From Ilumatobacteraceae bacterium (GTDB taxonomy: Bacteria; Actinomycetota; Acidimicrobiia; Acidimicrobiales; Ilumatobacteraceae), in NCBI GenBank assembly GCA_021298195.1, contig JAJTEQ010000023.1, forward strand, positions 1-43,170: DNA of 43,170 bases, read 5' to 3'. Position 1 is the first letter of the stretch. Each line of letters begins with the position of its first letter. The notes beneath the pieces were generated by a model. It saw only the letters and a list, made by a program, of their open reading frames with translations. It ran no database searches and was not told the origin of the DNA. The position numbers were made by a program, and so were the translations under genes. Below are positions 5,162 to 17,753 of this stretch, piece after piece.

Positions 5162-6126
5162 CCGGTGAGTCGTTCGACGACGGGAGCGACCGCGTCGATC
5201 ACCGACGCCCCGAACGACACGTAGCTGATACCGAAGCGCTCGCGTCGCTCGACGATGCGGTCGCAGATCTCGTCGATCGAACCGATCAACGCGTTGGGGT
5301 GCTCGGCCAACACCTCCGGCGTCATGCCGAACATGGGGGCCATCTTCGCGCGGGTTCCCTCACCATCCGGGGTGACGATGGTGAAGTACGCGGCGATCTC
5401 GATCTCGATGTCGGAGAAACGGCTACCCGCGCCCTCTTTCACCCACTGGATCTTCTGGTCGGTCAATTCGGCCGTCGAGGACCCGATGCCGTCGGGACCC
5501 AACTTGCCCGAGGAGTTGTTGAAGTTGAGGCTCACGATGTCGGCTTCGCGACCCGCGATGGTGAGCACGCGCTTGGCGCCGCCACCGATCATCAACGGCG
5601 GACCCGGCTTGCGCACCGGCTTGGGAACCGCCTCGAAGCCGACCGCGTGAACGTGACGACCGTCGATGTTCAGTTCGCCGTCGGCGAAGGAGGCCCGCAA
5701 CAGGCCGATGACTTCCTCCATGCGGTCGATGCGCACACCCGCCTTGTCGAACGGGATGCCCATCGCCTCGTACTCGTTCTGCAACCAGCCGGCGCCGATG
5801 CCCAATTCCAGGCGTCCCTCGGAGAAGAAATCAAGGGTGGCGGCTTCCTTGGCCAGCATCACCGGATTGCGATAGTCGACGCACAACACGCGACAACCGA
5901 CCTTGATGGTCTCGGTGGCCTCGGCGGCCACCGCCATGGCCGGAATGGCCGCCACGGTCTGCACGGGGTGACCGGTGGCGTTCAACGCCGGGCCCGGTCC
6001 GATGACGTGATCGGCCAGATGGAACGAGGAGAACCCCATCGACTCGGCCTTGCGGGCCAGATCGCGCCAATCCTTGGCCGATGCCGGTGCGTAGGCCTGC
6101 AATCCGAAGCGGAACGGCTTGCTCAT
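5155..6126 (-). CDS. LLM-class (luciferase-like) F420-dependent oxidoreductase
   Basis: This 323-residue TIM-barrel protein begins FRFGLQAYAPASAKDWRDLA and carries FHLADHVIGPGP near residue 40, a CRVLCVDYRNPVMLAKEAATLD block, and GRLELGIGAGW, all typical of bacterial luciferase-like monooxygenases of the F420-dependent actinobacterial branch, possibly the MSMEG_2516-like group. Such enzymes transfer hydride between F420 and organic substrates; use of F420 rather than FMN is inferred from the family. The start at 6126 overlaps the stop of the upstream PEP-utilising-domain gene (ATGA), so the two are co-translated. An in-frame extension upstream is only the shadow of that gene. Confidence 0.88.
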   Translation of the reverse strand: MSKPFRFGLQAYAPASAKDWRDLARKAESMGFSSFHLADHVIGPGPALNATGHPVQTVAAIPAMAVAAEATETIKVGCRVLCVDYRNPVMLAKEAATLDFFSEGRLELGIGAGWLQNEYEAMGIPFDKAGVRIDRMEEVIGLLRASFADGELNIDGRHVHAVGFEAVPKPVRKPGPPLMIGGGAKRVLTIAGREADIVSLNFNNSSGKLGPDGIGSSTAELTDQKIQWVKEGAGSRFSDIEIEIAAYFTIVTPDGEGTRAKMAPMFGMTPEVLAEHPNALIGSIDEICDRIVERRERFGISYVSFGASVIDAVAPVVERLTGK

Positions 6127-7865
6127 GCGGGCACCTCCAGCACGGTCACGGCGCCGGTGTCGCCGTTGACCTCGATCAACGAACCACTGACGATGCGCAA
6201 GGTGGCGTCGGTCGCCGACACCACGCACGGAAGCCCCAGTTCACGACTGACGATGATGGCGTGGCTGATGGCCGCACCGACGTTGACCACCACCGCACCA
6301 CACGACATGAACAACGGCGTCCACGCCGGGTCGGTGTTGGGGGCGATCAGCACGTCGCCGGGCTCCAGTTCGCCGGGATCCGACGGATCGAGCACCACGC
6401 GGGCCCGACCGACGTACACACCGGTGCACCCGGGCACGCCCTGCACGACGTCACCCACGACCGCCTTCGTCGCCGAGCCCTGCCCCTTCTTCTTGTACTC
6501 CGAGAGCGGGGGCACCAAGCCGTTCTTGATGAAGAACGGCGGCTCCAACTTCTGCAGTTCCTGCCATTGCGCGTGACGCTGCGCCAAGGTGTCCTTTATC
6601 GACGCACCATCGAACAGGAACTGATCGAGCTCGGACTCCAGCAAGGCGAACACGTGATGCGGGTCCGCCAACGAACCCTCGGCCGCACGGCGACGACCCA
6701 ATTCGCGGAACACCATGCGCACCTCGTGCAGGGCGCGGATGATGTTGGTCTTGGTGCGCTCACGGATGGCCATCTGGTTGGCCGCCACGAGGGCGCCCTC
6801 GAACTGACCGGCCAACTCCTCGCCGAGCGGCTTCACCAGAGCACGCACCTCGTCGGTGAGTCGACGACGTTCGTCGGCCATGCGCTTGTTCCGACTGGTG
6901 GGCGATTCGGCGTCACTCTGCAGACGGATGCGATCGATCGCCGCCAAGGCGATCTCGGGTTTGGTCTCCCAGGTGTCGGCGCTGATCTCCCATTCGTTGG
7001 GTCCGCGCGAACCGAACTCCACCAGGAACTGATCGAATTCGGCGACCCACTTCTTGGCGCCGGCGTCGGACGACGCCCGCAAGCGACCGAGCAATCCGGT
7101 CACACCGGCCGCGAATTCCTTGCTGACCGCCGCGGACGCGTTCGCCGATCGCGAGAGTTCCCACATTCGGTAGCTCGGTTCGGCCGAGTCCACCTCGCCG
7201 ATGCCGGCGATCAACTTCATCGCGGTCTCGGGCTGCCCGATGGCGGCGCACACCGCTCCCAGGACACCCGGAGCGATGGCCGAGTCCGACGACGGTGGGG
7301 TGTGGCTGTCGAACAACTTGCGCAACATCGGTTGCAACATGCGTGCGCGGGCCAGCAGGCCGGCGTCGCTCAAACTGGTCAGGTCGGGCCGACCGGCGCG
7401 CAGAGCGATGGTCAGTTCCTTCTCGGCGTCGACTTCGGGGATGGAAGTGGTGGTCATCACGAAACCGAGGTGGGCGAGAATTCCCTCCACCAGATCCGGA
7501 CGCTCGTCGAGCGGGTGGGCCTCGTACGGAGGAACCTCGGGATGATCGCCGAAGAACGCCAGGTCGAGCTGTTCGACCGTCAGCAACGGACTGCGCACCG
7601 CCTGCATGCGCACGTTGGCCAGGTTGATGTAGAAGTAGCCGGCGAAGAAGCCGCAGACCTCGGGCTCGCCATCGGTGAACTCGTCGAAGGTGTAGTTGCC
7701 GCCCCGCACGTAGCCGTCACGCCACCCGAGCAGGATTCCGTTCTCCCAGCAGAACTGCTGGCTCAACGGGCTCGCCGACGAACTCAGAACCTCGCCGGCG
7801 TTCGCGCGCGTGTAATGAGGCCACCGCTTGCTCGGCGCCCGGTCGGTGATCCAACGATCGGCCAT
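6123..7865 (-). CDS. PEP-utilising enzyme mobile-domain protein lacking the ATP-grasp half
   Basis: The 580-residue protein ends in a PEP-utilising-enzyme mobile (phosphohistidine) domain: IAPNTDPAWTPLF, then GAAISHAIIVSRELGLP with the phosphorylatable His535, then IEVNGDTGAVTVL. The rest, about residues 1-480, is mostly predicted helical and includes aromatic-rich segments such as SKRWPHYTRANAGEV near the start. PPDK, PEP synthase and rifampicin phosphotransferase also carry an N-terminal ATP-grasp domain; no ATP-binding domain is recognisable here. It may need a separate ATP-grasp partner encoded elsewhere, or act in another way. It leads the operon with the LLM oxidoreductase. A GGGGGAGA ribosome binding site precedes the ATG, and a 20-bp palindrome lies 41 bp upstream. 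Confidence 0.8.
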   Translation of the reverse strand: MADRWITDRAPSKRWPHYTRANAGEVLSSSASPLSQQFCWENGILLGWRDGYVRGGNYTFDEFTDGEPEVCGFFAGYFYINLANVRMQAVRSPLLTVEQLDLAFFGDHPEVPPYEAHPLDERPDLVEGILAHLGFVMTTTSIPEVDAEKELTIALRAGRPDLTSLSDAGLLARARMLQPMLRKLFDSHTPPSSDSAIAPGVLGAVCAAIGQPETAMKLIAGIGEVDSAEPSYRMWELSRSANASAAVSKEFAAGVTGLLGRLRASSDAGAKKWVAEFDQFLVEFGSRGPNEWEISADTWETKPEIALAAIDRIRLQSDAESPTSRNKRMADERRRLTDEVRALVKPLGEELAGQFEGALVAANQMAIRERTKTNIIRALHEVRMVFRELGRRRAAEGSLADPHHVFALLESELDQFLFDGASIKDTLAQRHAQWQELQKLEPPFFIKNGLVPPLSEYKKKGQGSATKAVVGDVVQGVPGCTGVYVGRARVVLDPSDPGELEPGDVLIAPNTDPAWTPLFMSCGAVVVNVGAAISHAIIVSRELGLPCVVSATDATLRIVSGSLIEVNGDTGAVTVLEVPA

Positions 7866-11565: not shown

Positions 11566-12075
11566 ATGGCACGACTCGACGTTCCCGACGGTGAAGGCCT
11601 CGAGGCCCATCGCATCTGGGCCCTGGCACCCCACATGGGAGCCGGCATGGCCGCCATGAGCGAGGCGGTGTACGTGAAGTCCAGCCTCAGCATCCGCGAG
11701 CGCGAGGTGGCTCGCATGCGGATCGCCCAGCTCAATCAGTGCGTCGTTTGAATGAACACTCGGGCCGCATCGGCGATGCGGCAAGGACTCGACGACGAGG
11801 CGTACAACTCGGTTCAGCACTACCACGACCATCCGGACTTCACCGATCGCGAACGTCTCGCCGCCGAGTACGCCGAGCGCTTCGCCATCGACCACACCGC
11901 CGTCGACGACGACCTCTGGAGTCGCCTGCGCACGCACTTCAGTGACACCGAGCTGCTGGAACTCACCGTGACCATCGGTTTTTGCGTCGGCATGGGACGC
12001 GCGTACCAGGTGCTCGACATCGCCCGGGATTTCGACGTGCTCTGGAGCAAGGAACCGCCGGCAACGGACGGCTGA
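11566..12075 (+). CDS. Carboxymuconolactone decarboxylase/AhpD-like protein, predicted selenoprotein (CxxU, UGA at codon 62)
   Basis: Reading UGA at 11749-11751 as selenocysteine gives one 169-residue AhpD/CMD-family protein. The segment before it, SIREREVARMRIAQLNQC, and the one after, MNTRAASAMRQGL, are the usual surroundings of the family's redox CxxC; here it is Cys59-Val-Val-Sec62. The downstream half (FTDRERLAAEYAERFAID and LLELTVTIGFCVGMGRAYQVLDI) is normal for the family and in the same frame, with no other disruption. A bacterial SECIS-like hairpin lies at 11764-11782. The family includes peroxidase-type thiol reductants (AhpD) and decarboxylases; the thiol/selenol pair points to a peroxidase or reductase. 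The ATG at 11566 follows a GAGAGAGG-type site. The alternative is a nonsense mutation in a CxxC gene. Sec machinery genes are not in the window. Confidence 0.8.
11749..11751 (+). other. Predicted selenocysteine-encoding UGA codon
   Basis: In-frame TGA exactly at the second cysteine position of the CxxC active site, followed by 108 codons of conserved family sequence. Confidence 0.78.
11764..11782 (+). promoter_or_regulatory. SECIS-like hairpin
   Basis: Arms GCCGCATC (11764-11771) and GATGCGGC (11775-11782) pair perfectly over 8 bp with a GGC loop. The loop begins 20 nt after the UGA and opens with G. Known bacterial SECIS elements place an apical loop with a G in its first positions roughly 16-37 nt after the UGA, so position and form both fit. 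Confidence 0.72.
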
Positions 12076-12113: not shown

Positions 12114-12485
12114 ATGAGCCCACTGGAAACCGTCAACGCATTCATCGCCGCCCTCGAGCGGCTCGACGTGGACGCGGCCTGTGCGCTGGTCGCCGACGGA
12201 TGCGAGTACGACAACGTGCCCCTGATGAAGGTGTACGGACCCGACGGCGTCAAGGGGGTCCTCGGACCCATGTTCGGTGATTGCACCGAGGTCGAATGGA
12301 TCGTGCACCGCGAGGCCGCCAACGGCACCACCGTGTTCAACGAACGAACCGATCGCTTCAAGATGTCCTGGGGTTGGCTCGAGTTGCCCGTCAACGGCGT
12401 CTGGGAGGTCGTCGACGGCAAGATCACCTTGTGGCGCGACTACTTCGACGCCCAGAGCTACTTCAAACAGTTGCCCGCTTCCTGA
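12114..12485 (+). CDS. Limonene-1,2-epoxide hydrolase-like (LEH) protein
   Basis: This 123-residue single-domain protein has the cone-shaped LEH/NTF2-like fold signature. The active-site set known from Rhodococcus limonene-1,2-epoxide hydrolase is present with matching spacing: Tyr32 and Asn34 in EYDNVP, Arg78 and Asp80 in NERTDRF, and Asp109 in LWRDYFD. The family opens epoxides by a one-step Asp-Arg-Asp water attack, so an active epoxide hydrolase is plausible, with a terpenoid or other bulky epoxide as a possible substrate. A strong GAAGGAGAT site precedes the ATG. It is the last gene of the molybdoenzyme/selenoprotein operon, 38 nt after the latter, and ends 6 nt from the convergent livF. 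Confidence 0.85.
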   Translation: MSPLETVNAFIAALERLDVDAACALVADGCEYDNVPLMKVYGPDGVKGVLGPMFGDCTEVEWIVHREAANGTTVFNERTDRFKMSWGWLELPVNGVWEVVDGKITLWRDYFDAQSYFKQLPAS

Positions 12486-13193: not shown

Positions 13194-13951
13194 CAGTGTC
13201 CTCCCTCGTTCGCACTGGAGCCCAGATACGCCTCGATCACCTTGGGATCACGTTTGATCTGATCGGGTGTTCCCTCGGCGATCTTCACGCCGAATTCGAT
13301 GACGTAGATGTAATCGCACACGTCGAGCACCAGACCCATGTCGTGGTCGACGAGGAAGATGGTGAGACCGGCGTCGATGATGCGTCGAAGACGCCGACCC
13401 AGCTCCTGGGACTCGGTGGTGTCCAAACCCGCGGCGGGCTCGTCCATGCACACCAGATCGGGCCGGGCGGCCAGTGCGCGCGCCGCCGACACCAACTTGC
13501 GCTGACCCTGGCTGATCTCGTTCGGGTACTTCTTCGCCAGGTCGCCGATTCCCAAGACGTCGAAGGCGAACTCGACACCGCTGCGGTCGCGTTTGCGTCC
13601 GGGACGCACCAGGTCGAGCAGGAAATTCTTGGCGGTCTGCCGTTCGGCGGCCACCTGCACGTTCTCCTCGATGGTGAGATCGTCGAACAACTCGAGCGAC
13701 TGCCAGGTGCGACCGAGGCCCAAACGAGCCCGCGAATGCACCGGCATCTCGTTGATCTCCTGGCCCTTGAACTCGATGCGTCCCGTGGTGGGCACGAAGC
13801 CCGTGATGCCGTCGATGAAGGTGGTCTTGCCGGCCCCGTTGGGACCGATGAGACCGACCAACTTGCCCTGCTCCACCGAGATGTCGACGTTGTTCACGGC
13901 CCGCAAGCCTCCGAACGTGACCGACATTCCGTTCGTCGTCAAAAGACTCAT
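13193..13951 (-). CDS. livG: Branched-chain amino acid-type ABC transporter, ATP-binding protein LivG
   Basis: The 252-residue ATPase has Walker [10 protein letters not shown] (36-44), signature ISQGQRKL, Walker [13 protein letters not shown] and the switch His in [27 protein letters not shown] insertion and the EIAEG-like C-terminal [14 protein letters not shown] are typical of LivG. The signature has Gln where Gly is common (SQGQ), which is normal for LivG. Start and stop overlap both neighbours (ATGA with the permease, TGATG with LivF). Confidence 0.93.
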
Positions 13952-16167
13952 GCCGAACCCTCCCCCTGGGTTGTGTTCACCTTACTTCGCTCGGCGATGG
14001 CCGCTTTTCGCACCGCCTTGTCGATCTTCTGCTGCTTCAGAAGCCGCGGTGCGCCCGCGAGTCCCTCGGGGTTTCGCACCGCCGTGATGATGAGGCCGAT
14101 GCCGCCGATGAGCGTGGCGTACCCCTGGTCGATGTGCAGGATGTTCTCCAGGAAATTGAAGTTCAATCCGTTCGGGACCACGATCCCGGCCAGAACCGCG
14201 CCCGACACGCTGGCGATTCCTCCGAGGTACGCGAAGGCCAGGAAGGTCAATGACGCGAACGCTCCGAAGTACTGCGGTGTCACGGACCCGAATCGATATC
14301 CGGACAAGGCGCCGCCCAGTCCGGCGATGAAAGCAGCGAGGCCGAAGGCCAGGATCTTCGTGCGCGCGACGTCGATACCCGATGCCGCGGCCGCTCGCTC
14401 GTTGGAGCGCACCGCCAGGAACTGGCGACCCGTCGCCGATCGGCGGACGTTCACGACCATCAGACAGAGGAGGACCACGAACACCAGACAGACCACTCCG
14501 AACCACACGTTCGGCGGAACGTCGTCTCGACCCTTGAATCCGAGCACCTTCAGCGCCGTGTTGTTGGGTCCGAAGTCCTTGCCCCCGATCATCGGCGGGT
14601 CGACCCGCAACGCTCCGAGTTCTCCGGCGAAGGTCTTGTTCTTGAAGACGAGTTGTTCGATGGCGACCGCGGCGGCCAAGGTGATCACAGCCAGGTTCAC
14701 CCCGCGAAGGCGTAGGGCCGGAATGGAAATCGCCGCGCCGAACAGAGCCGCCACCACCGAGCCGATGAGTGGGGCCAACGGGAACGGAAGGTCGGAGAAG
14801 TACTTCGACATGAAGAATCCAGCGGTTCCCGCCAACGCCATCTGTGCCAGAGAGATCTGACCGACGAATCCCGTCAACACCACCAGTGACAACGCGATGA
14901 CGACGCCCACCAACGTGTTGATCGTCGACTGTCGCCAGTCGTAACTGAACCCGAACAACATGACCAACGTCGCCACGACCGCGACGAACGTCAAGGCACC
15001 CACGTGCCTGGGGGCCACGGCCGCGGGCATCTTGCCCGATGACACGGCTCCGCGCACAGGGAGCGCCTTGCCACGAGCGAACATGGCGATGACGATGACG
15101 AAGAAGGGCAAGGCCTGGGTGAGACCGGCGGTCGGCAGCACACCACGCGGGAACCACGTCTGGGCACCTTGGTACTGCACCCACCCTTGCAGCATCGCGA
15201 TTCCGATACCGGCGGCTACGGTCACGCCGAACGACGAGAAGCCGGCGAGCAACGCCGCTCCCAGCGCCGGAACGATCAACAACGGAAGGGTGATCGTGTC
15301 CAGGTTGGTGATGGGTGAGGCCAAGATGCCGAGGAGTCCGGCGATGACGGTCGACAACACCCAGTTCGCACCGGCCAGGAAATCGGGCGAGAAACCCAGC
15401 AGCATCGCGCCCTTCTCGTTCTCGGCCGCGGCGCGCGTGGCCAGACCGAAACGTGTGAAGCGGAACAGCGCCCACAGGACGATGGCGATCGCCACGACCA
15501 CGGCGACGAGGAACAGCTGGTTGTTGGGGATGGCCCCCAGTTCGCCGGGAAGGTCGACCTTCCCCTTGGGAAGCGGGAACTGCACGCCGGTGCGGGCCAG
15601 TTCGCCGAAGCGAAGTCGCAGGAACTCCTGGAGCACCACGAACAATCCCACCGAGGTGACCACCTTGGCCAGCACCGGAGCGTTGCGCAACGGGCGGAAG
15701 ATCAGAAAATGGAGGGCCAGACCGAACAACACGGCCAACAACAGCGAGACGATCAATGCCGACGCGGTGGTGAGACGGTCACCGGGAAGATCGATGACGG
15801 TGGGCCAATTCACGAGGTCCAGCTTGTTGCCGTCCTCGCGGAACCAGTTGACCGGAATCTCGATCAGAACCAGCGGGTTGGGCAACGGCGGCACGTAGAA
15901 CTTGCCCTCCATGCGCAACCCGTAGTACCAGTACGCGACGAAGATGGTCACCACGCCGTTGGCGAAGTTGACCACACCGGAGCCGCGATACGTCAACACC
16001 ACGCCGAGGGCGATGGCGGCCATCAAGGCCCCGGTTCCCACGTTCGAGAACATGGGTGCGAGCTGTCGTGCGTCCCATACGTACAGGATCGCGAAGACGA
16101 ACAACACGATCGCCGATCCGGAGACGGCCGGCTTGCGACGAGCGAACTTCAGCAATCCTTCGAGCAC
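13948..16167 (-). CDS. livHM: Fused LivH-LivM permease of a branched-chain amino acid-type ABC transporter
   Basis: At 739 residues this is twice the usual permease length. The N-terminal half (about 1-365) is LivH-like with RGSGVVNFANGV and FLIFRPLRNAPVLAKVV; the C-terminal half (about 390-715) is LivM-like with LVVLTGFVGQISLAQMAL, IPALRLRGVNLAVITLA and FGLAAFIAGLGGALSGY. About 16-18 hydrophobic membrane segments are apparent. A single polypeptide therefore provides both membrane halves that are usually separate genes. The reading frame is continuous with no sign of a recent frameshift. A GTG start at 16167 with a GGGGGA site was used. The C-terminal 40 residues are cytoplasmic, basic and variable. 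Confidence 0.92.
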   Translation of the reverse strand: MLEGLLKFARRKPAVSGSAIVLFVFAILYVWDARQLAPMFSNVGTGALMAAIALGVVLTYRGSGVVNFANGVVTIFVAYWYYGLRMEGKFYVPPLPNPLVLIEIPVNWFREDGNKLDLVNWPTVIDLPGDRLTTASALIVSLLLAVLFGLALHFLIFRPLRNAPVLAKVVTSVGLFVVLQEFLRLRFGELARTGVQFPLPKGKVDLPGELGAIPNNQLFLVAVVVAIAIVLWALFRFTRFGLATRAAAENEKGAMLLGFSPDFLAGANWVLSTVIAGLLGILASPITNLDTITLPLLIVPALGAALLAGFSSFGVTVAAGIGIAMLQGWVQYQGAQTWFPRGVLPTAGLTQALPFFVIVIAMFARGKALPVRGAVSSGKMPAAVAPRHVGALTFVAVVATLVMLFGFSYDWRQSTINTLVGVVIALSLVVLTGFVGQISLAQMALAGTAGFFMSKYFSDLPFPLAPLIGSVVAALFGAAISIPALRLRGVNLAVITLAAAVAIEQLVFKNKTFAGELGALRVDPPMIGGKDFGPNNTALKVLGFKGRDDVPPNVWFGVVCLVFVVLLCLMVVNVRRSATGRQFLAVRSNERAAAASGIDVARTKILAFGLAAFIAGLGGALSGYRFGSVTPQYFGAFASLTFLAFAYLGGIASVSGAVLAGIVVPNGLNFNFLENILHIDQGYATLIGGIGLIITAVRNPEGLAGAPRLLKQQKIDKAVRKAAIAERSKVNTTQGEGSA

Positions 16168-16280
16168 AGACTCGTCCCCCGAATCATCGGGTCGTTGGAC
16201 CCGCTCTCACGGTCGGCCCCGCGAGGCCGATCCGTCACTTCACGAACGAATAATCGTCGGACGACGCCGACGAACGAACC

Positions 16281-16328
16281 ACGTCGGGTCGAGAACGAGA
16301 CACCACGTGTCCGCTCTCGACCCGACGT
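16281..16328 (-). terminator. 14-bp-stem hairpin in the binding-protein/permease gap
   Basis: ACGTCGGGTCGAGA (16281-16294) pairs perfectly with 16315-16328 across a 20-nt loop that itself contains GACAC-cac-GTGTC (16299-16311). There is no T-run, so it is more likely an mRNA-stabilising or partial-termination element, lowering permease expression relative to the binding protein, than a full intrinsic terminator. Confidence 0.5.
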
Positions 16329-16346
16329 TCGACCCGTGAGGGTCGA
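16329..16346 (-). terminator. Small hairpin directly after the binding-protein stop
   Basis: TCGACCC (16329-16335), loop GTGA, GGGTCGA (16340-16346). The outer arm can alternatively pair with the arm at 16315-16328 of the larger hairpin, because GGGTCGAGAG recurs. Confidence 0.4.
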
Positions 16347-16355
16347 GAGTTCGAA

Positions 16356-17753
16356 TCAACCCTGACCGAGTTCGGCCACCGGGTTGATGGCCTTGCCGTT
16401 GTATCCGTCGAGGACGGACACGTACTCGGCACCTTCTTGCTTCTGGATACCCACGGAGAATCCGCAGAGGCTCGGGAAGGTGGCGTTCGCGCCGCACTTC
16501 ATGTCGCCGGCCGCCATCCACTGGGGTCCGGCGAAAGCCTTCACAGCGGCGCGGATGCCCGCACCGTCGGTGGCGCCGCCGTTCATGAACTGGGCGACGG
16601 TCATGAAGGTGGCGAACGTCGGACCGCTGAATCCGGTGTACTCCAGATCCTCGATGCCCTCGGTCTCGGCCCAGGCGAAGACCGCGTCGTTGTAGGCGTC
16701 CTGGTTGGGGTCTCCGGCAATCTCGTACGAGAAGCCGTAGCCGACGAAGTACCAGCCGTCGGGCAACTTGCCGGGCTCACCGACCGACTTCATGTGGTCC
16801 TGCATCGGAGTGCCGAAGCACAAGCCGGTGGTGACCACGGTGGTGTCGATCTCGAGGGTCTTGATGGCGTCGTAGATACCGATGCAGCTCTGCACCGTCA
16901 CGAGCGGCAAGAACACGTCGGCCGTGTCCGCACCAGCGGACTGGATGGCGGTGGCCATCTCGCTGGTGCCGGCGGTGTCGGGCACCGGCACACCGGTGAC
17001 CTCGAGACCGAGGCTCTCGAGCACGGGCTTGGTGAGCGCGGTGAAGGCGATCGTTCCGGCCGGGTTGTCGTTGTACACGACCGCGGCCTTCTTGATCTCC
17101 TTGCCCTCCAACTCACCGAGGTAGTTCGCGGCGAACACCGACATACCCTGCACGACTCCGGGCGAGCCCGGGGTGAACGCGTAGGCGTCGGTGGCCAGGA
17201 ACTCCGGCGTGGTGGTGGGGTTACCCAGGATGACGGGCTTCTTGTCCTTCAGCCCGTCGAGCAGGGGTGCGGTGCCGTTGAACATCGCACCGGTGACGAC
17301 CACCTGCACGTCGTCGTTCGCCAGCATCTCCTGCGCGCACTTCTGGCCGTCCTCTTCCTTCGTGACGAAGCACTCGACCAGTTCGATCGGACGACCGCCG
17401 ATTCCACCGAGGAAGTTGTTGATCAACCACACGGCGGAACGGGCACCATTGGAGGCCTCCGGGAACGCCGGGGTGCCACCTTCCTGGTTCACGTAACCGA
17501 TGTAGATCGGGTCACCGCTGGCCGCACCCGCGGTGCCGCCGGTGTAGGCGAGCGCGGTGTCGAGCGTCGACTGGTCGAGCGGAGACTCCGACGGCGCGTC
17601 GGTGCTGGGTGCTTCCGAGGTCGGGGCTTCCGATGTCGGGGCCTCGGTCGCCGGCGCCGAGGTGCTCTCGCTACTCGAATCCTCGCTACACGCGCCGGCG
17701 AGCAAGCCGAGTACGGCCAGGCCCGCGACGAAACTGATCTTCCTGCTTCTCAC
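16356..17753 (-). CDS. Branched-chain amino acid-type ABC transporter substrate-binding lipoprotein
   Basis: The 465-residue protein has a lipoprotein signal with LLAGAC (Cys22), a low-complexity Ser/Thr/Glu/Pro linker with repeated APTSE units (about 23-60), and then a type I periplasmic-binding domain of the Peripla_BP_6 kind starting at DPIYIGYVNQEGGTPAFPEA. It is expected to sit outside the membrane and deliver ligand to the fused permease. It is the first gene of the transporter cluster, separated from the permease by a 188-nt hairpin-rich gap that may give it higher expression. The GTG start at 17753 follows an AAGGGGGAA site. The ligand cannot be predicted; amino acids, amides, or hydrophobic acids are all possible for this family. 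Confidence 0.92.
   Translation of the reverse strand: MRSRKISFVAGLAVLGLLAGACSEDSSSESTSAPATEAPTSEAPTSEAPSTDAPSESPLDQSTLDTALAYTGGTAGAASGDPIYIGYVNQEGGTPAFPEASNGARSAVWLINNFLGGIGGRPIELVECFVTKEEDGQKCAQEMLANDDVQVVVTGAMFNGTAPLLDGLKDKKPVILGNPTTTPEFLATDAYAFTPGSPGVVQGMSVFAANYLGELEGKEIKKAAVVYNDNPAGTIAFTALTKPVLESLGLEVTGVPVPDTAGTSEMATAIQSAGADTADVFLPLVTVQSCIGIYDAIKTLEIDTTVVTTGLCFGTPMQDHMKSVGEPGKLPDGWYFVGYGFSYEIAGDPNQDAYNDAVFAWAETEGIEDLEYTGFSGPTFATFMTVAQFMNGGATDGAGIRAAVKAFAGPQWMAAGDMKCGANATFPSLCGFSVGIQKQEGAEYVSVLDGYNGKAINPVAELGQG

Follow-up and report, generated by a model that had tools for sequence, protein, structure and literature searches.

The gene at 11566-12075 very probably codes, as judged from sequence, for a selenoprotein of the AhpD/CMD fold with selenocysteine (Sec) at residue 62 of an AhpD-like redox site. 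That codon 62, an in-frame TGA, specifies Sec is the firmest part of this assignment and is predicted with near certainty. The gene lies in a window of 43,170 nucleotides from an Ilumatobacteraceae bacterium, the window being the whole stretch of DNA that was analyzed. An active-site Sec is thereby proposed for a protein whose gene is cut in two by ordinary ORF calling. Little selenoprotein literature was found for Acidimicrobiia, Ilumatobacter or Ilumatobacteraceae. Natural Sec and Cys forms within one genus, in the same gene order, offer a clean system for studying what an AhpD-like enzyme gains from Sec, and the conserved molybdoenzyme neighbor is a first lead toward the substrate.

Reading frame and family of the predicted selenoprotein

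The ATG at 11566 and the TGA at 11749-11751 share one frame, which has its own stop, also TGA, at 12073-12075. Beyond the internal TGA the frame continues for 107 codons, or 108 counting the stop, in agreement with the figure in the first-pass annotation. The same annotation held that ordinary ORF calling divides the gene, and the ORF listing does treat 11752-12075 as a separate frame. The read-through protein matches PF02627 (CMD) at 35.9 bits, above the Pfam gathering score of 23. The segment upstream of TGA62 alone reaches 20.3 bits against the same cut-off, and no Pfam family was matched at 0.001 by the segment downstream of it. The TGA had been placed where the second Cys of the family CxxC is expected; the Cys found at codon 62 in relatives bears this out.

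Table 1. Positions of the predicted selenoprotein gene, its recoding elements and its neighbors in the window
Feature	Position	Strand	Details
Cytochrome P450	7973..9259	-	PF00067; divergent neighbor of the molybdoenzyme in own genus and in Cys-bearing genus g25
Molybdopterin oxidoreductase, 725 aa	9371..11548	+	PF00384, PF01568, PF04879
AhpD/CMD-like selenoprotein gene (predicted)	11566..12075	+	169 aa with UGA62 as Sec; motif C59-V-V-U62, E47, R66
In-frame TGA, predicted selenocysteine codon 62	11749..11751	+	TGA in 17/20 orthologues, Cys in 3/20
Bacterial SECIS-type hairpin (predicted)	11764..11782	+	8 bp, GGC loop, conserved pairing
Limonene-1,2-epoxide-hydrolase-like gene	12114..12485	+	PF07858, 124.3 bits; 38 nt downstream of the selenoprotein gene

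Codon 62 in orthologues and more distant relatives

Orthologues, defined as places with at least 65% identity, were sought across the own taxonomic family, represented by 150 genomes. Some match to the CMD selenoprotein at E 0.001 was present in 95 of the 150, and 20 orthologues were obtained. Aligning homologues for Cys or Sec at position 62, as had been suggested, gave TGA in 17, Cys in three and nothing else. TGA62 aside, internal stops are absent from all 20. The TGA (predicted Sec) forms come from the own genome, nine more genomes of the own genus, and G099, G024, G064, G050, G051, G034 and G017; because the 5' part of G017 is N, its codon 62 was numbered by alignment. The Cys forms, with protein identities of 73-80%, come from G022 in the own genus and from G025 and G043 in genus g25. 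The own genus accounts for 12 of the 150 genomes, and one of these (G143, 80% complete) gave no match.

An additional contig scan returned 17 loci, several of them from genomes already in the 150-genome survey. The TGA is present in all 15 loci with at least 80% identity, and the two remaining loci (34% and 26% identity) are without it. In the distant forms of G008 (40%) and of the second G064 copy (46%), TGA stands at the codon-62 position too. Random stops in close relatives and an unconserved hairpin had been named as signs against a selenoprotein; stops were found only at codon 62, and the hairpin is kept.

The Cys62 codon is TGT in the two g25 genomes and TGC in G022, which suggests separate Sec/Cys switches. 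A tree of 30 rows contains at least four Sec/Cys changes. Because only 7 of its 26 inner branches are well supported and several branches are long, no direction of change was drawn.

A phylum-wide survey of 396 genomes gave 32 with a match at 1e-25. The matches listed include no true Sec form of the clade apart from that of the own genome, and the nine places read had no molybdoenzyme homologue nearby. Plasmid records with a match to the CMD protein numbered 191, all below 60% identity. The flag "1 TGA" was considered as a rule for calling Sec and was rejected: the TGA of G542 (L113/L140) is the mere terminator of a Cys form, and loci L162, L163, L165, L166 and L168 lack either a Cys-x-x-TGA site or a match. 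Such flags have to be inspected individually.

Other CMD paralogues in the family genomes have Cys-x-x-TGA at the aligned position in 15 of 20 stretches, from several clades; these 20 are of low identity, were hand-picked from "1 TGA" rows and do not represent CMD paralogues as a whole. The 15 (L149-L161, L164 and L167) show the motifs YHDCxTU, HHDCGTU, TDCGYU, NECHYU, NDCAYU and NACPIU, with Arg four residues after U in every one, and two of them share one single-contig genome of 4.83 Mb (G012). CMD-fold selenoproteins may form a small expansion in this lineage, the paralogue hairpins having been folded only.

A conserved SECIS-type hairpin

The hairpin consists of GCCGCATC (11764-11771), the loop GGC (11772-11774) and GATGCGGC (11775-11782), and its apical loop contains a G, as is expected of a SECIS-type hairpin. 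The perfect 8-bp stem with a GGC loop was thus found as first described. Its reported distance of 20 nt from the UGA is correct for the loop and incorrect for the stem, which lies at 12 nt.

Folding of 11749-11800, starting from the UGA, gave -19.4 kcal/mol with a z of -3.16, and 1 of 200 shuffles was equally stable. The shifted stretch 11740-11790 gave a z of only -0.87, with 42 of 200 shuffles equally stable. Because z depends on the stretch chosen, fold energy alone is weak evidence and was not used as proof; the deciding evidence is conservation. When the codons were recoded synonymously at random 100,000 times, 1,161 recodings had any such 8-bp stem and 132 had it at the exact place. Nine other genes of the window together offer 3,741 codon positions, and such a stem follows 22 of these.

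Codon and hairpin counts were made on 20 Sec sequences, each with TGA at codon 62. Locus L038 (5' part N; stem perfect), locus L039 (distant, 6/8 pairs) and loci L049-L056 and L059-L061 (first 52 bases identical to kept rows) were left out. The length, position and loop of the hairpin are identical in all 20, and the stem is perfect in each. Among the 19 distinct sequences 152 of 152 cells are paired; seven pairs are invariant, and one is changed on both sides (U-A to C-G) in five sequences, which may represent one or two events. Slid controls, in which the partner was moved by 1-3 columns, were 13-63% paired, and none of 500 shuffles matched the paired percentage or the covariation score. As a single pair varies, two other measures do not exceed the shuffles, namely the number of double-changed pairs (1, a value reached by 419 of 500 shuffles) and that of further pair types (reached by all 500).

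With only one or two covariation events possible, synonymous constraint matters as a second line of evidence. Codons 68-70 show no synonymous difference in 570 pairwise comparisons of the 20 Sec sequences. The synonymous rate per comparison is 0.097 in codons 67-72, whereas codons 1-61 have 0.539 and codons 74-164 have 0.493; codons 68-73 are the lowest six-codon stretch of the gene for synonymous differences. In all 20 sequences the Gln/Arg change at codon 72 is coupled with that of the Ala codon 67. The Cys orthologues have 3, 3 and 5 of the 8 stem pairs left, and the distant G008 form has a different stem at the same place with 6 of 8 positions pairing. The proposal that the hairpin is a bacterial SECIS agrees with this conservation, with the compensatory change and with the loss in Cys forms. 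From these comparisons of sequences, the pattern is the one predicted for a SECIS and is unlike that of a dead gene or a leaky stop.

Selenocysteine machinery in the own genome and in relatives

The own assembly is 91% complete and comprises 107 contigs. It contains a tRNA-Sec that scores 67.5 bits, where the cut-off is 47, and that ARAGORN calls tRNA-SeC with anticodon tca. It also contains selD, at 323.6 bits with a cut-off of 125. Only tRNA-Sec matches over the cut-off were counted, because matches at E 0.001 occurred in all 14 well-known genomes used as controls for this family; five of the 14 had matches over the cut-off. Neither selA (best 20.6 bits, cut-off 267.9) nor selB (best 95.5 bits, cut-off 242.25) was found in the 91% complete assembly. 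The selB-like matches, of at most 95.5 bits, were rejected as probable other translation GTPases by their frame length and partial coverage. The search for selA, selB, selC and selD that the first-pass annotation had advised was therefore positive for selC and selD in the own genome, with selA and selB absent from the draft. Missing sel genes had been offered as grounds for refutation in the case of a complete genome; this one is at 91%, and the place where a relative has selAB coincides with an assembly break.

Among 24 genomes of the genus, the own one included, selA is over the cut-off in 17 and selB in 16, and selB adjoins selA in all 16. A tRNA-Sec over the cut-off is present in 21, and 20 of these matches have 91-92 bases and at least 65 bits. 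The G103 match has 71 bases and 47.7 bits and probably belongs to an ordinary tRNA. A clear tRNA-Sec is missing in 4 of the 24 genomes, two of which are the Sec-form carriers G103 and G135 (86% and 88% complete).

In the family, selA is over the cut-off in 111 of 150 genomes. It occurs in all 16 other Sec-form carriers among the 150 and in all three Cys-form carriers, so its presence does not tell the two forms apart. Four of the six genomes reached via named loci have selA, including that of L049 (protein 99% identical); by places and scores, these four repeat genomes of the 24-genome set. The genome of L050 (1.5 Mb assembly, protein 98% identical) is without selA.

Absence of selA and selB from a draft genome can reflect an assembly gap. 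In G103 both genes sit between flanks that map to the right end of the own contig C47 (4,766 bases) and to the own contig C4 (4,445 bases) from base 854. One piece before the G103 selA has a weaker match (68-73%) on the own contig C90. An assembly gap is the simplest reading of the missing selA and selB, and real loss or replacement in the own genome is a less simple one. Among the matches listed by the selB search of the own genome, none has a frame of about 395 residues like the EF-Tu-like matches in six relatives; there are only two 20-residue pieces at contig ends. Other relatives are also without the match of about 395 residues, and its absence is a weak sign of assembly gaps. Bases 1-853 of C4 (L109), which occupy the place expected for the region behind selB, are unmatched in G103; they are either inserted DNA or the product of a misjoin at this break.

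Active site, fold and likely chemistry

All 28 aligned proteins share the residues E47, C59, C/U62 and R66. The Glu and Cys-x-x-Cys of AhpD are present as E47, C59 and U62, with predicted Sec for Cys. The His four residues past the second Cys is not present, and Arg66 stands there in all 28. This relay His is invariant among the structures compared in the available part of PMC3141380. With Arg66 and Val61 in place of the relay His residues, the exact AhpD mechanism need not hold.

An AlphaFold2 model with Cys for Sec had a mean pLDDT of 86.7. Its best Foldseek matches were the peroxidase-related AhpD-like structures 2pfx, 2ijc, 2o4d and 3c1l. The debrominase Bmp8 (6ohj, 6ohi) followed at ranks 31-33 (E 2.3e-3 to 4.4e-3, probability 1.00). 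As modeled, the fold and the redox pair are AhpD-like.

SelB and tRNA-Sec have established roles in UGA decoding. During translation SelB and Sec-tRNA(Sec) would bind the hairpin at 11764-11782 and decode UGA62 as selenocysteine. The redox pair C59-x-x-U62, with E47 as the likely base, would then take the place of the AhpD Glu and Cys-x-x-Cys. Most likely the enzyme reduces a hydroperoxide or a disulfide-type substrate, its selenol/thiol pair turning into a selenenylsulfide and back. Thiol/selenol redox chemistry is considered probable. The protein is likely to be a selenol/thiol redox enzyme or a peroxidase, the peroxidase role being putative.

A molybdoenzyme neighbor in a catabolic-looking cluster

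The molybdoenzyme gene stops 17 nt upstream of the selenoprotein start. Both this gene and the epoxide-hydrolase-like gene on the other side had been noted in the first-pass annotation as a context that it did not recognize; they are there, and the context proved to be a conserved association with the molybdoenzyme. Of 25 stretches read, 20, belonging to three genera, have a molybdoenzyme alignment that ends no more than 80 nt before the CMD gene begins, with both genes on one strand. They comprise all 15 stretches from the own genus or similar records, the two Cys-form stretches of g25, and three of genus g13 (G064, G050 and G034). About 1.3 kb lies between the two genes in G099 (g13) and about 0.9 kb, including a run of 100 N, in G017 (g18). 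The stretches of the Sec forms G051, G024 (8.1 kb contig) and G008 gave no homologue of the molybdoenzyme.

As far as the stretches reach, the gene order in the own genus is P450 (divergent), molybdoenzyme, CMD, epoxide-hydrolase-like gene and ABC importer (convergent); it is the same around the Cys form of G022. The epoxide-hydrolase-like gene adjoins the selenoprotein gene only in the own genus and is absent from the g25 stretches. The cluster region also contains further P450s, a luciferase-like oxidoreductase, an acyl-CoA synthetase, an enoyl-CoA hydratase (named from sequence, without a domain scan) and a branched-chain-type ABC importer. No second molybdoenzyme subunit was recognized among the scanned neighbors.

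Among PDB entries, a sequence search placed the molybdoenzyme nearest to 2e7z, an acetylene hydratase (E 3.1e-39), and to formate dehydrogenases. In the alignment it lacks the Cys/Sec that these enzymes have near the metal; the acetylene hydratase Cys at that place aligns with the Gln in TSVTIDQPAK of the molybdoenzyme. The molybdoenzyme is therefore neither an ordinary acetylene hydratase nor a formate dehydrogenase of the Cys/Sec type.

The gene order suggests that the selenoprotein is probably on one transcript with the upstream molybdoenzyme, serving the same pathway, and that the cluster is catabolic, for the breakdown of some compound. A pathway link between selenoprotein and molybdoenzyme is somewhat favored. 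It is rather unlikely that the two form a redox module whose CxxU member serves to reduce or protect the molybdoenzyme or to perform a reductive step on the substrate of the latter (e.g., a Bmp8-like dehalogenation). Such a module would bring selenium and molybdenum together in one catabolic route of aquatic actinobacteria.

On the minus strand of the window, positions 6123-7865 encode a 580-aa protein with only a C-terminal PEP-utilisers mobile domain (PF00391). This protein is found in the cluster at 68-99% identity in the own genus and g25 and at 43-46% in G024, G050 and G034; it was not found in the G041 and G092 stretches. Also on the minus strand, at 13948-17753, is a 739-aa permease of the branched-chain type. 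It contains two BPD_transp_2 stretches and resembles a fused LivH-LivM. The permease and the binding protein are 95-98% or 91-98% identical to those of G041 and G092 and only 81-82% and 74-75% identical to those of L050 and G103, though the neighboring genes are nearer in the latter. This identity pattern is a sign of importer exchange. Locus L057 (CALPPJ020000168.1), labeled as a Bifidobacterium breve MAG, carries the actinobacterial cluster with four genes at 69-85% protein identity, and it looks as if the label is wrong or the bin contaminated.

Alternative explanations

The absence of selA and selB from the own assembly would agree with a dead gene, in which a Cys codon has become TGA through pseudogene formation or a sequencing or assembly error. 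Nevertheless, the TGA is common to the 17 orthologues from separate genomes of several genera, the protein is conserved on either side of it, and synonymous sites in the hairpin are strongly constrained, so this explanation has a vanishingly small probability. It is also extremely improbable that the UGA is a stop followed by a second gene restarting at the overlapping ATG (TGAATG, 11749-11754). Although that ATG directly follows the TGA in the window and in loci L020 and L021, and 11752-12075 has its own frame in the ORF listing, 17 of the 20 Sec sequences have CTG instead. Such a split would also part the two redox residues and leave a downstream half that has no Pfam family match by itself. 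Reading of the UGA as Trp or another standard amino acid, through an altered code or leaky read-through, is hardly credible. The molybdoenzyme gene and the selenoprotein gene both end in TGA, which thus functions as a stop there; orthologues have Cys and never Trp at codon 62, and a tRNA-Sec with a UCA anticodon is present.

With Sec inserted, the protein might still be something other than a peroxidase. It could be a thiol/selenol reductase acting on the cluster substrate, for example a reductive dehalogenase like the CMD-fold debrominase Bmp8, or a carboxymuconolactone-decarboxylase-like lyase. Bmp8 uses cysteine chemistry. The presence of Bmp8 among the Foldseek matches, with TM-scores on the query of 0.67-0.70, the location in a catabolic-looking cluster and the missing AhpD relay His point in this direction. 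On the other hand, Bmp8 ranked below the peroxidase-related proteins and no dehalogenation partner was identified, and a non-peroxidase role is regarded as doubtful. A Sec-containing enzyme with an AhpD-like redox site is the reading preferred here, as a prediction.

Comparison with known systems

The best PDB sequence match of the protein, and one of its best structural matches, is PA0269 of Pseudomonas aeruginosa (2o4d, 2ijc; E 4.1e-13). Its Glu is aligned and its C-x-x-C aligns with C59-x-x-U62. The available part of PMC3141380 describes a relay of Glu36, Cys48, Tyr50, Cys51 and His55 in PA0269 and a weak peroxidase activity. In the present protein, Sec is predicted to replace the second Cys, and the relay Tyr and His become Val61 and Arg66. 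Mycobacterium tuberculosis AhpD (1knc, 1gu9) has Glu, Cys and Cys at 118, 130 and 133 (PMC3141380, available part) versus 47, 59 and 62 here, with equal spacing. Its relay residues His132 and His137, given in the same part of that paper, likewise correspond to Val61 and Arg66, and it is a weak global structural match (Foldseek E 0.87 to 1.5).

The best NCBIfam match, over residues 10-139, is NF053654 (GroundWater_YciW, YciW-related (seleno)protein), which all 28 aligned proteins match at E 0.001 or better. At 71.9 bits, far short of the curated cut-off of 310, the protein is not a member of that equivalog. The peroxidase-related enzyme family TIGR01926 is matched at 40.8 bits, below its cut-off of 81.8.

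AhpD-like and CMD-domain CxxU selenoproteins were described from the Sargasso Sea in 2005, with 27 and 4 sequences (PMC1088965, available sections). In GOS, AhpD-like 1 (COG2128) numbered 299 and AhpD-like 2 (PF02627) numbered 70, the latter being commoner in nonmarine samples (PMC2398784, available sections). The first-pass statement that AhpD-like selenoproteins are known from marine metagenomes is in line with these sections of the two surveys. Tables of 2022 and 2026 reviews, in the portions at hand, list AhpD-like CxxU selenoproteins (PMC9312934, PMC13188914), the 2026 table giving an AhpD-like protein, TIGR01926, with CxxU (PMC13188914). Actinobacteria were called a selenoprotein-rich phylum in 2006 (PMC1794560, available text).

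A molybdoenzyme neighbor is unmentioned in the available sections of PMC1088965 and PMC2398784. Likewise, a link between an AhpD-like selenoprotein and a molybdoenzyme was not found in those of PMC13188914, PMC2398784, PMC1088965, PMC1242214, PMC9312934 and PMC1794560. Compared by description only, from the same sections, the Sargasso Sea and GOS selenoproteins share with the present protein the CMD/AhpD domain, CxxU, Cys homologues and SECIS-like stem-loops. The gene at 11566-12075, with its predicted Sec, is an addition to a kind of selenoprotein known since 2005.
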